In this document: positions 3,891-7,859 of the stretch, in pieces | Layout: each line of letters begins with the position of its first letter | How positions within the stretch are numbered: position 1 is the stretch's first letter | Source of the DNA: Deltaproteobacteria bacterium RIFOXYA12_FULL_61_11 | Lineage (GTDB): Bacteria; Bdellovibrionota_F; JAHFAK01; YA12-FULL-61-11 | Direction: 5' to 3' | Assembly (NCBI GenBank): GCA_001799195.1 | Contig: MGSU01000110.1 | Coordinates: 1-11,660 of the forward strand | Length of the DNA: 11,660 bases | Program-made: the position numbers and the translations under genes | Notes under the pieces: generated by a model | Told to the model about the DNA's origin: nothing | What the model saw: only the letters and a program-made list of their open reading frames with translations | Database searches by the model: none

Positions 3891-6800
3891 GTGAGCAGCA
3901 TGCACCGGATCGATCAGGTGCGCCGGCGATTGAGTTCGCTACGCCAGATACAGTGCCAATCGGCCAGCCTTCGTAAAGGTATTTGGGGCTCGCCCATGGG
4001 CAAGACCAGGCTCGCCGACCGCATCGCGGCCGAGCTCCCGGAGCACACCATCTACGTCGAGCCTTTTGCCGGTGGCGCCCAGGTGCTGTTTACCAAAAAG
4101 CCCTCAGAGGTGGAGGTCGTTTCCGACCTCGACCCCGAGATCGCCTTCGCCTTCAAGTTCGCCAAAAACCTCACGGCCGAACAGCTCGAACGGCTGCGCC
4201 GTAAGAAGTGGGTCGGCGACAAGGAACATTTCAAAAAGCTCGTCGACGCCGGAGTGCCCGAGGACGGCCTCGAGCGTTTTTATCGCTTCGCCTACCTCAG
4301 CCGGTTCTCGTTCAACAAGCTGCGGCGCGGGACCTTGCCGGAGGTCAACGTGGGCGCGGACTCGCACTTTATTGCCAAGCTGGAAAAATATGCGCCCAGG
4401 CTTTCCAAGGTCAAAGTCCGCTGCGCTGACTACGAAAAAGTCATCGACGAGTTCGACGGTCCCGACACCGTGTTCTTTCTCGATCCGCCCTATACCGGCT
4501 ACAACGCCGACCGCACCTCGGGAACCGAGCACAAAGACTGGGATGAAAAACGCTTCGCCGCGGTGCTCCGGCGGATCAAAGGCAAGTTCCTCTGCACCTA
4601 TGGCACACGTGGCTCGGCCGATCTTTTCAAGGGGTTTACGGTCCGCCGCTGGCGGCACACCTCGGGCGTCGGCACCTCGCAGGGGAATGGTCCGCGCCAG
4701 GGCGTGACCCTGGTTGCCACCAACTACAAACCCCAGGCTCCAGGCAGAAAGACCAAAGTATCCTCTCAGTCCCCAGTCTCCAGCCTGACCAAGACTATTT
4801 GGGGTTCGCCCGCGGGCAAGAAGCGCCTGGCAGAGCGCTTGGCCTCGCTGCTTCCGGCGCACGATACCTACGTCGAGCCCTTTGCCGGCAGTGCGGCAGT
4901 GCTCTTTGCCAAGGAACCGGCCAAGGTCGAGGTGCTCAATGATGCCGATCCCGAGATCGGCGAGGCATATCAGGTCATCAAACAGCTCAGCAGCGCAGAG
5001 CTTGCCCGACTGCGCACCATGGTCTGGACCGGCGACAAGACGACTTTTACACGGATCTTCGACTCCAAGCCCACGGGTAAGCTCGAGAAACTGCATCGCT
5101 TCCTCTACGTGGCACACTTCTCCTATGGAAAACTGCGCAGCCGCTCGTTCAGCCCGGCCAGCGACGGGGCCGAGGCCACCACTGTCGACCGGCTCGAGAA
5201 ATTCAGCCCCCGGCTGAAACACGTCCGCATCCACAGCGGCGACTATGAAAAGGTGGTCAGAAAATACGACGGCAAGGCCACGGTCTTCTATCTCGATCCG
5301 CCGTACCCCGGTTACAACGTGGACGTCGGCGAGTCCGACTTTGACGAAGAGCGCTTTCTCAAAGTGCTCAAAGCGCTCAAGGGCAAGTTCTTGTTGACCT
5401 ACGGCCCCCGCGGCACCCTGCCGGGCCGTTTTGAGAAAGAGGGTTTTAAGGTCAAAAGGATCCGCCCGAGCAGGACCATCGGCTCGATGCGCGGTGTCGG
5501 CGGCCCCAAGGTGCTGACCACCTTGCTCGTCTCCAATTACGACCTGGTCGAAAAGAACCTCCAAGACGCTCTCGGCGACGAGTGGACGCTCGAGGACCTG
5601 GAAAAGCGCCAGCCCTTCGGCACCTTCGGCGGCTCTTTTCATTATGCCAAACGCATCGTCCCGCTCATCCCCGAGCACACGACCTACGTCGAGCCCTTTG
5701 CCGGTGCCGCGGCGGTGCTGCATGCCAAAGAACCCTCGCACAAGGAGGTTCTTGCCGATCTCGACGACGACGTGGTGTTCCTGCACCGCTTCATCAAGGG
5801 CATGAACGAAATCACGCTGGCCAAACTGCAAAAACTCAACTGGACCTGCACCCTCACCAACTGGAAAAGGGTACGAGCACTGCAGCCGGCAAACGAGGTC
5901 GAGCGTTTCTACAAGCTTGTCTTCATCCGCGGGAAAGGCCGCGATGCCCGACCCGACGCAACGCACCCGGCCGGATCGGCCCTGGGGCAAACCACGCATC
6001 CGGAAAAATACCTCGAGGCCGCCCAACGGCTCTTGCACGTCACCATCCTCAAACAGGACTTTCGCAAGACGATCAGTCAGTTCGACGGCAAGCAGACCTT
6101 TTTCTTTCTCGATCCGCCATACCCTGGCGAGTGGTACGACAAGGACGCGGCGGTGGACGTTGACGAATTCGTCGAGGTCCTCGCCACGATCAAGGGCCGC
6201 TTCATCGCGGTCCTCAACGATTCTTCCCAAAATGCCGCCGCCTTCAAACGAGTAGGCCACATCTTCCGGCTCAAGGTCCGCGAAGCCTCCGGCACCGGCG
6301 GGGCCAAGACCGCCTCGCGCCTCTTCTGTTCCAACTACAAGATCGCTAAGACCGAGGATTGCGAAATCCTCGAGGATCGTGACGACCTCGACAAAGAAGT
6401 CTGGTCCCGTGCCTTCCTCAACGACCTGCCCGACAGCGCCTTTCTCTACATCGAGGCGGGCGGCGAGAAAGACGAGGACGGCAAGACCGTGCCGCGCAGC
6501 CTGCGCCATTTCCCGGTGCGCGATGCCGAGGGTGGTATCGACCTTCCACATCTGCGCAACGCCATCGCCCGCATCCCGCAGGCCAAGATCCCTGGCCTGT
6601 CTGCAAAAGAAAAACTTCAAAGCCAGGCCCGACAACTCTTGGCCGAGGCGACCAAGAAAAACCTCTTCGACAAGGCCATGCCCCTGCTCAAGGGCGCCGA
6701 TCCCACGGACGAGCGTTTCGTGCTCGGCATCGTGCTCGAGCCCGAGGTGGTCGACGCCCAGGGCGATATTTATTCGGAACCGGAAGTCCGCCAGGCCGCT

Positions 6801-7859
6801 CACCGCTTCATGGAAGATTTTGGCGGCCTCGGTCTGATGCACCGGCTGCGGGTCAACGGCCAGGTCAAGGTCTTGGAGAGTTTTCTGGCTCCGGTGGATT
6901 TTGTCTTGAGCAATCAGGCTGTCAGCGGTCAGCCCCAAGAAGAAACGATCGAGCCTCACAGCCCACAGCTCAAAGCTGACGCACCAACGGTTCGTCGCGG
7001 TACGTGGCTGTTGGCAGTGCGCATTCTGGACGATGACCTCTGGAAACAGGTCAAGGATGGCACGCTGAGCGGCTTCTCGATCGGCGGCTCGGCGAGGAGA
7101 GTCCCAGCGCCCGAGCCACGAGTCGTGAGCGAAGAAAACACGGTCCAAAAAGCACAGTCTCTTCCTCAAGACTCAGGACCCACCGCTCAAGACTCCCCCA
7201 CCCACCGGCTCCACGACATCGTGGTCGAGGAAGTGTCGCTCGTGGACCGGGCGGCGAACAAACACACATTTCTCATCGTGAAAAGGAGCGACGTTATGGA
7301 CGAACACACTGAGCTGCATGAGCAAGGTAGCGAACAACCCAGTACGGACTCGCAAAGCACAGCCACGGGGGGAGTGCTCGAGGTGGCGGTCGAGGCCCTG
7401 GAGCGGCTGACCGATGCGGTCGAGGCGTTGGAACAAGCGCCCGAGCAGGAACAAGCGCTCGACGGCCTGATCGGCGAGCTCCACACCCTGACCGACCGGC
7501 TTACCGAGACCGCGGGAGGTGGGGCGAAACCCAAACCGGAAGCGAACCCGCTGGAGGCCGTGCGGACCACTCTCGGGGAGGTCGTCCAGTTGCTCGAGCG
7601 GCAGGGCAAACCGGCTGTGCCGCCTCAGGAAAATCCCTTACAGCAAGAGCTGACCACCCTGGCCGGCGCGGTCAAAGAGCTCGTTTCCGGCCTCAAGGAC
7701 CAGGCTCAGCGGCTGTCCAAGCTGGAGAAGAACGTGGGGTTGCCCAACAGCACTCCGACCACAGAGAAAAATTCCGAGGAAATCGGTTGGCCCCTGGACC
7801 TCAACCGTCCCTGTGACCGCGAGAGCGTGGACAAGGCGGTGTCGTTCCACGAGCTGTGA
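3891..7859 (+). CDS. Giant fusion: three Dam-like adenine methyltransferases + XkdF-like prohead protease + scaffold
   Basis: A 1322-residue chain (numbered from GTG 3891). Residues about 28-285, 300-556 and 572-822 are three D12-class N6-adenine methyltransferase domains. Each has motif I EPFAG (residues 57, 329, 601), the downstream acidic motif (SDLDPE, NDADPE, ADLDDD) and motif IV DPPY (198, 469, 741). Residues about 837-925 form a phage domain with [10 protein letters not shown] and [15 protein letters not shown]. Residues about 945-1132 resemble the XkdF-type prohead serine protease: candidate His 984 (LMHRL), candidate Ser 1063 (SGFSIGG), then [11 protein letters not shown]. The rest is an acidic coiled-coil scaffold. 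I start at GTG 3891 (AGAGGG 9 nt upstream); ATG 3900 is in frame, and ATG 3996 would cut into domain 1. The protease matures the procapsid; the methyltransferases would modify adenines, presumably of phage DNA. The triple fusion is highly unusual; activity of each domain is unproven. Confidence 0.85.
3978..6345 (+). repeat. Tandem triplication of the methyltransferase domain (816-nt period)
   Basis: The codon for Glu of EPFAG lies at 4059, 4875 and 5691, exactly 816 nt apart each time. The DPPY Asp codons are at 4482, 5295 and 6111 (813 and 816 apart). Domains 1 and 2 share the opening IWGSP-x-GK-x-RLA (ATT codons at 3981 and 4797) and are clearly the closest pair. Domain 3 opens differently, with [14 protein letters not shown], and has a diverged target-recognition region. 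Protein-level identity is moderate and nucleotide copies are diverged, so the duplication is old. Confidence 0.8.
4734..4785. repeat. Heptanucleotide-rich linker between methyltransferase domains 1 and 2
   Basis: CAGGCTC, CAGGCAG (4734-4747) and, in a second register, CTCAGTC, CCCAGTC and TCCAGCC (4765-4785) encode the Ser/Pro/Gln-rich linker that ends domain 1 (VATNYKP) and precedes IWGSP of domain 2. Three 7-base units equal seven codons, so expansion by threes keeps the frame. Confidence 0.45.
6921..6982. repeat. Heptanucleotide units inside the protease domain insert
   Basis: GTCAGCG, GTCAGCC (6921-6934) and then CTCACAG, CCCACAG, CTCAAAG, CTGACGC (6955-6982) are consecutive 7-base units. 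They encode a polar Gln/Pro/Ser/His stretch between APVDFVLS and [11 protein letters not shown], where family members as I recall them have a short loop. The insert is about 25-30 residues. Confidence 0.5.
7153..7194. repeat. Heptanucleotide array in the linker before the last protease strand
   Basis: Six in-register 7-base units run CACAGTC, TCTTCCT, CAAGACT, CAGGACC, CACCGCT, CAAGACT. The third and sixth units are identical. They encode the flexible stretch between SIGGSARR and [16 protein letters not shown], rich in Gln, Ser, Pro and Thr. Confidence 0.55.
7281..7288 (+). promoter_or_regulatory. Internal ribosome binding site for the nested scaffold
   Basis: AAAAGGAG (7281-7288) sits 7 nt before an in-frame ATG (7296) at the precise protease/scaffold boundary, just after the last protease strand FLIVKR. 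It is as strong as the sites of the separate genes here, which supports independent internal initiation. Confidence 0.65.
7296..7859 (+). CDS. Nested scaffold protein (internal in-frame start of the fusion gene)
   Basis: A 187-residue product in the same frame as the fusion, starting [14 protein letters not shown]. It is acidic and helical: residues about 27-50 ([20 protein letters not shown]) and later [20 protein letters not shown] with RLSKLEKNV form heptad coiled coils separated by Pro/Gly-rich linkers, typical of phage scaffolds. A short basic or polar C-terminal tail (about 156-187) could bind capsid protein, as scaffolds usually do. Lambda gives the precedent: the scaffold Nu3 is encoded in frame at the 3' end of protease gene C. 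The strong internal ribosome site makes the same logic likely here: much free scaffold, little protease-scaffold. The major capsid gene follows, as expected, and lacks a long N-terminal delta domain of its own. Independent expression is inferred, not shown. Confidence 0.65.

Follow-up and report, generated by a model that had tools for sequence, protein, structure and literature searches.

The window analysed here, 11,660 nucleotides of contig MGSU01000110.1 from Deltaproteobacteria bacterium RIFOXYA12_FULL_61_11, carries a group of phage head genes in which one open reading frame (ORF) joins three tandem D12-class (Dam-type) adenine methyltransferase (MTase) domains, named A, B, and C, to an XkdF-type prohead protease and a scaffold. 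As read from the sequence, the fusion occupies a single frame, recurs in relatives, lies among head genes, retains intact MTase motifs with selection acting on all three domains, contains an internal start for the scaffold, and exchanges its N-terminal cargo between relatives. By a modest degree, we favor the view that the MTases reach the procapsid attached to the protease-scaffold part, are freed by proteolysis, and are ejected with the DNA, which they would then methylate in the new cell against restriction.

One reading frame joins three MTases to a head protease and scaffold

The frame of the fusion runs from position 3831 until its stop codon at 7859, uninterrupted over 1,342 codons. GTG 3891, with AGAGG just 5' of it, is the best-placed start, and ATG 3861 and ATG 3900 are alternatives in the same frame. 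The Pfam search matched MethyltransfD12 in three stretches (E value 3.7e-52; PF02086 score 178 bits, cut-off 22) and the XkdF protease PF14550 (6e-23), and the NCBIfam profile dam TIGR00571 also matched three stretches (1.4e-58; 198.7 bits, cut-off 115). At the DNA level, three diverged copies are spaced 816 nt apart with 67 to 77% identity over short stretches, and a chance origin of this repeat is excluded. An earlier interpretation made from the letters of the window (hereafter the sequence-only reading) had proposed a single open frame from 3891 to 7859 joining three MTases, an XkdF-type protease, and a scaffold, and this is borne out by the frame and by both profile collections. Its residue numbering of the EPFAG and DPPY motifs agrees with a start at GTG 3891, and both motifs are found in all three domains. 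Beyond that reading lie a domain of approximately 95 amino acids at 6372-6671, an internal ribosome site and start for the scaffold, and a second gene copy on another contig (C305) of the same genome.

The fusion recurs in the same genome and in other assemblies

The second copy is truncated, 70% identical to the first, and likewise has three MTases on one frame. Three MTases also occur in loci L123, L138, and L026 from other assemblies, and dozens of further loci carry one or two. Scanning viral contigs and genomes for the protease and for domain C gave more than 100 further loci, the named hosts being chiefly Myxococcota. There were 121 distinct protease cores, 102 of them with a complete 5' end; among the latter, the number of MTases ahead of the protease was zero in 24, one in 54, two in 20, and three in 4, figures that are not prevalences because the scans were seeded with family members. 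The sequence-only reading had suggested looking for the architecture in other phage DNA, and it was found in these viral contigs and genomes; the records of isolated phages (50,697) held no match covering 80% of a single-fusion query or of P0001.

An assembly error or a frameshift that joins neighboring genes might be suspected, given that the window is a short contig of a metagenome-assembled genome and that the scaffold fusion was seen elsewhere only in L161. Against this stand the second triple copy in the same genome, three more triple loci in other assemblies, and a frame that stays open for 1,342 codons. Only the join between protease and scaffold could be questioned, and L161 has one of the same kind. 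We therefore regard an artifact as barely credible. For the MTase-protease part it is ruled out by the second genomic copy and the recurrence elsewhere, and a frameshift or assembly join separating the MTases from the protease, which the sequence-only reading had named as a finding that would overturn it, was not seen. In C305, the scaffold is an ORF of its own that overlaps the protease ORF by ATGA; hence fusion to the scaffold is particular to the window (and L161), whereas the MTase-protease fusion is general.

The MTase domains are three lineages under purifying selection

Motif X, motif I (EPFxG), and the catalytic DPPY are present in alpha-class order in all three window domains; motif X of domain C is a variant, FGTFGGS, that is conserved within the C lineage. 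By profile and by motif, the domains belong to the D12-class (Dam-type) adenine N6-MTases, and DNA methylation is their predicted activity. A tree of 121 domains placed A, B, and C in separate lineages. Their order is constant: B occurs by itself in Myxococcus prophages, the usual double form is B-C, and A-B and A-B-C occur as well. A C-type domain also lies within the scaffold of L006. The ratio of nonsynonymous to synonymous substitution rates (dN/dS, NG86 method) among triple-domain relatives was approximately 0.16 to 0.32 per MTase domain, compared with 0.11 to 0.17 for the protease, and the values between the window and its relatives (0.23-0.32) were alike for A, B, and C. The DPPY motif is unchanged in 109 of 113 domains, with DPPW in two, DPPL in one, and APPY in one (domain B of L138). 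Judged by these comparisons, A, B, and C are three old lineages under purifying selection.

The sequence-only reading had raised, as a cheaper alternative, that the chain keeps one functional MTase together with decaying copies, which would be relics on a tolerant N-terminus. Domain B of L138 and the locus L155, which resembles a broken domain, fit such decay, but the idea is unsupported because the three lineages are ancient, ordered, and under purifying selection in every domain, and the window and almost all other members keep intact motifs; we consider it very improbable. A recent duplication with decay is ruled out by the tree, the motif table, and the dN/dS values. The putative recognition segments are more divergent between domains than the cores (identities of 42 versus 51% for A-B, 21 versus 36% for B-C, and 29 versus 41% for A-C) and are conserved within each type (66-72%), a pattern that suggests different target sites for A, B, and C.

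The N-terminal position holds interchangeable enzymes

In relatives, the place of the MTases is taken by other enzymes, instead of or besides MTases. An ATP-dependent DNA ligase precedes the protease in L080, L090, L094, and L097; L080 and L094 additionally show a weak LigD phosphoesterase match. The 1491-amino acid fusion of L026 has three MTases and, between MTase C and the protease (residues 1238-1306), a Tad3-like Thoeris inhibitor domain (38.8 bits, cut-off 27). An inorganic pyrophosphatase was found in L101 and L119, and in L103 it is located after the protease. In L099 (2126-6900), a queuine tRNA-ribosyltransferase-like domain precedes the protease and possibly serves 7-deazaguanine modification of DNA. 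The 370 to 505 residues ahead of the protease in L077, L088, L113, and L078 gave no Pfam or PHROG match, and these regions are candidate entry-phase proteins. The slot is nearly empty in L106, L107, and L115. From these arrangements, the protease N-terminus looks like an interchangeable cargo slot, and the ligase, Tad3-like, pyrophosphatase, and queuine-transferase-like activities would all help a genome newly inside a cell.

The protease appears split in most relatives, and the scaffold has an internal start

The profile match, the invariant His and Ser (alignment A7 positions 66 and 145, in 50 protease sequences), and the position beside the portal and MuF genes and the major capsid protein gene identify the domain following MTase C as an XkdF protease. 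Its structure model, made with the EVSL segment included, had a mean predicted local distance difference test score (pLDDT) of 63. A Foldseek search of the model against the Protein Data Bank gave no significant match; in a second-look alignment, the top match was T4 gp21 (Z 7.1, root mean square deviation 3.2 over 104 residues; next 3.5), so that a T4 gp21-like core is moderately supported by the model. The model left the EVSL segment unplaced. We take the Glu of the EVSL strand to be the third catalytic residue, from what is known of HK97-type proteases.

Relatives encode the EVSL segment at the start of a separate scaffold ORF. Of 135 loci examined, without removal of duplicates, 100 have a scaffold ORF that overlaps the end of the protease ORF by 4 nt, as in ATGA. 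Because the scaffold ORF begins with the strand bearing the candidate Glu, the protease appears to be divided between two polypeptides in most relatives, the His/Ser half going with the cargo and the EVSL strand with the scaffold, and to be fused in the window and L161. L161 and L162 are 96 to 98% identical on both sides of the junction, which in L161 consists of ACTCAAG-type heptamer DNA; fused and split forms therefore seem interchangeable. An in-frame TGA within a Citreicoccus protein was considered as recoding and ruled out, since it is the ATGA junction of the protease and scaffold ORFs.

Within the fusion, the window has an in-frame internal ribosome site and start (7281-7298) of the kind that defines a nested gene, whose product is predicted. 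Met is found at the internal start in 91 of 102 distinct loci, compared with a background of 12%, and a Shine-Dalgarno-like sequence with ATG follows a conserved VKR in 85 of the 102. The Arg codon of this VKR is AGG in 65 of 102 loci, whereas AGG accounts for 5% of Arg codons across the same ORFs. The conserved ribosome site and ATG 7296 thus predict a free scaffold of 187 amino acids beside the long chain. In phage lambda, the scaffold Nu3 likewise arises from an internal start within the protease-scaffold ORF C; the nested start is shared with the window, but the protease of lambda C is of an unrelated fold and has no enzymes attached to it as cargo. As a side observation, the WPxD[LM]N motif that ends the scaffold (7788-7805 in the window) is also found in a separate ORF just 5' of the MTase-protease in approximately 59 loci (e.g., L152, 5839-6075), and a related WPADL closes a 2H phosphoesterase ORF in L006 (4680-5798). 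One possible role is that of a common tag for capsid loading or for the scaffold.

Comparison with known systems

Polyvalent proteins, as described in the main text of Iyer et al. 2017 (PMC5512222), include conflict-related enzymes fused to a C-terminal assemblin-like peptidase of the prohead protease superfamily. The resemblance to the window lies in several unrelated enzyme domains per chain, a late phage operon, a terminal peptidase of that superfamily, and predicted packaging and delivery. Correspondingly, the window fusion has several enzyme domains on one polypeptide, a setting among packaging and virion genes, and a peptidase C-terminal to the effectors, followed by the scaffold, and we infer that it would be delivered into the host cell. 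It differs from what that main text describes in running on into a scaffold and in its three tandem Dam-type (DPPY) MTases in place of the EcoKI/TaqI-like (NPPY) methylase-helicase dyad. The window enzymes do not form a DarB-like dyad, in which an NPP(Y/F) methylase is joined to a SWI2/SNF2 helicase: they carry DPPY, and the profile search found no helicase domain.

In the P1 Dar system (DarA, DarB, Hdf, DdrA, DdrB, and Ulx), the proteins, including the methylase DarB, are packaged in order, the head protease cleaves DarA, and the components are co-ejected and protect the DNA (PMC12810830). A methylase in the head, cleavage of DarA by the head protease, and co-ejection against restriction parallel what we propose, and as a precedent this supports delivery of the MTases as cargo. 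In P1, however, the genes are separate, DarB is a methylase-helicase, and packaging proceeds through DarA and Hdf rather than through fusion to the protease and scaffold (PMC12810830).

Closer in sequence, an XkdF fusion in Myxococcus prophages (phrog_13242) has an orthologous domain B and protease at the same operon position, but with one MTase and the scaffold in its own ORF; the PHROGs entry is unnamed and lists no function. Phage Dam MTases (e.g., Pseudomonas B3, Vibrio VP882, and T4 Dam) are also of the D12 class with EPF(A/V)G and DPPY, but they are free proteins, approximately 30% identical, outside head proteins. The sequence-only reading knew of no described system with this chain. 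That statement is too broad in view of the polyvalent fusions in the main text of PMC5512222 and the single-MTase fusions of phrog_13242, but no description of the triple Dam-type fusion was found in the text searched. Beyond that main text, text searches gave no earlier account of an MTase-prohead protease fusion. Within these bounds, what appears new is the attachment of three tandem Dam-type MTases to a protease-scaffold, together with the cargo slot and the start inside the fusion for the scaffold; the class itself is known in outline.

A proposed route into the new host and its alternatives

MTases fused to the protease and scaffold are expected to enter the procapsid, and the interchange of cargo in relatives points the same way. 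We infer that the MTases enter the procapsid, are released by proteolysis and ejected, differ in specificity, and protect against restriction, as follows. The fusion chain would co-assemble into the procapsid via its protease-scaffold end, alongside many short free scaffolds from the start at 7296. The activated protease would then cut the scaffold and free the MTases within the head, where they would stay with the packaged DNA and leave with it at ejection. In the new host, with S-adenosylmethionine (AdoMet) present, the three Dam-type enzymes with different recognition segments would methylate the entering genome at different sites and so block restriction.

Several points weigh against this route. 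The searchable literature held no virion proteomics, methylome, or restriction data for the MTase-protease family, and no cleavage sites between the fusion domains were identified. In most relatives, the MTase-protease is a polypeptide apart from the scaffold, so that entry would there rely on protease docking alone. Domain B of L138 (4115-7408) has lost the catalytic Asp in an otherwise intact triple protein; single units can therefore be lost. GATC is not depleted in the window (71 observed, 63 expected), and composition thus gives no sign of GATC restriction pressure. Unlike in the window, GATC is scarce in the Myxococcus prophage loci L142 and L145, with 10 and 4 sites compared with 24 and 22 expected.

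The MTases might instead act in the producing cell. On this account, the main competitor, a late protein methylates progeny DNA ahead of packaging or during it, the fusion brings the enzyme to the packaging site, and nothing is ejected. D12 enzymes work in the cytoplasm, where AdoMet is present, the fusion is made late, at the time of DNA packaging, and the free dam genes of many phages could mark progeny DNA. A free gene would do for that purpose, however, making a three-enzyme fusion to a head-bound protease and scaffold needless, and the Tad3-like domain, DNA ligase, and pyrophosphatase found in the slot make more sense on entry. We judge action in the producing cell unlikely, though it deserves serious attention. 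Less probable still is a structural role, in which the domains are DNA-binding modules that serve to anchor the scaffold or protease to DNA or to adjust head size, and their catalysis does not matter. Fusion to a scaffold makes such a role plausible, and DarA and Hdf of P1 couple protection with head-size control (PMC12810830), but catalytic motifs are conserved in nearly all 113 domains, unrelated enzymes fill the slot in other phages, and L106, L107, and L115 do with almost nothing there.

Head proteases recorded as DNA methyltransferases

Many phage records name the head protease "DNA methyltransferase." The three examined, Lactococcus 56701 gp35, Rhizobium RHph_Y1_11 gp149, and phiPsa374 gp161, hold the XkdF domain only, and such head proteins were accordingly ruled out as precedents for the fusion. 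The same name is attached to PHROG phrog_1530. In the PaP1 methylome paper, ORF48, a protein of head-protease size, was proposed as the phage's putative methyltransferase; its relatives there include Haliangium, Stigmatella, and Myxococcus proteins, with a 156-amino acid alignment to the nearest and a 117-amino acid alignment to those of Stigmatella and Myxococcus (PMC4177049). Since 117 residues roughly matches the extent of the protease domain and the Myxococcus relatives belong to the MTase-fused kind, the name appears to have passed between proteins through the protease domain they share. Bare proteases under a wrong name seem to account for many phage "DNA methyltransferases," and PaP1 ORF48 was probably discussed as a methyltransferase on the basis of such misnaming.

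Head operon and neighboring features

The gene order in the window is holin-like gene, portal, MuF-like, fusion, major capsid protein, head-tail adaptor, a gene of unnamed function, neck protein, and TIG-domain protein. Two independent collections gave more than 100 related loci, most of which keep the order portal, MuF, cargo-protease, scaffold, and capsid. The small domain between MTase C and the protease had no Pfam match in the profile search. It is mobile among head proteins, occurring ahead of the protease, in an upstream ORF, or within the scaffold (L110, 3438-6575; L095, 3041-4126; L106, 7290-8576). Degenerate heptamer repeats (ACTCAAG/CCTCAAG, GCTAACN) were noted in spacers and in the protease-scaffold linker (L161, 7449-7505; window, 8979-9008 and approximately 7870-7990).

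Table 1. Positions of the fusion, its parts, neighboring head genes, and the misnamed proteases (window coordinates unless a locus is given)
Feature	Position	Strand	Remarks
Whole fusion ORF: MTase A, MTase B, MTase C, small domain, XkdF protease, scaffold	3891..7859	+	approximately 1322 aa from GTG 3891
MTase domain A	3972..4757	+	Pfam D12 / TIGR00571; own HMM, motif table
MTase domain B	4791..5570	+	Pfam D12; type occurring alone in Myxococcus prophages
MTase domain C	5604..6368	+	Pfam D12; profile matches DpnM-type structures 7m6b, 2dpm
Conserved domain of approximately 95 aa (LPDSAFL...)	6372..6671	+	between MTase C and protease; common to C305, L121, L131, L138, L047, L028, and others
XkdF / Peptidase_S78_2 prohead protease	6663..7115	+	PF14550 81.7 bits, cut-off 24; His codon 6840-6842, Ser codon 7077-7079
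EVSL segment, probable last protease strand	7182..7310	+	candidate third catalytic Glu, codon 7230-7232; presumed role
Internal Shine-Dalgarno AAAAGGAG for free scaffold	7281..7288	+	conserved together with its ATG in relatives
Predicted free scaffold protein, 187 aa	7296..7859	+	from internal ATG 7296
Conserved scaffold C-terminus	7659..7856	+	WPLDLN at 7788-7805; phrog_13975
Portal protein	721..2526	+	PF04860
MuF-like minor head protein	2763..3830	+	phrog_13868 1.9e-109 (no function listed); weak Phage_Mu_F
Major capsid protein	7994..8932	+	PF05065, phrog_1623
Head proteases annotated "DNA methyltransferase" (Lactococcus, Rhizobium, Pseudomonas phages)	L167 3369-4418, L168 3450-4088, L169 3399-3854		XkdF domain only

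Implications

More tentatively, and with considerable doubt, we suggest that the protease N-terminus is a general slot for entry-phase enzymes and that strand complementation of the genetically split protease both switches it on and attaches the cargo to the scaffold. The window would encode a virion-borne, multi-site anti-restriction device with three MTases of different specificity. The fusion family also helps explain a naming error in databases, now carried by many phage genomes and taken up in at least one methylome study. If the MTases are carried and released as proposed, tailed phages would have a simple rule for loading protective enzymes in their heads: attach them to the protease or scaffold, which has to go in regardless, then cut them loose. 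The slot could then be mined for counter-defense proteins, anything N-terminal to an XkdF-type protease being a candidate, with L077, L088, L113, and L078 as immediate targets.

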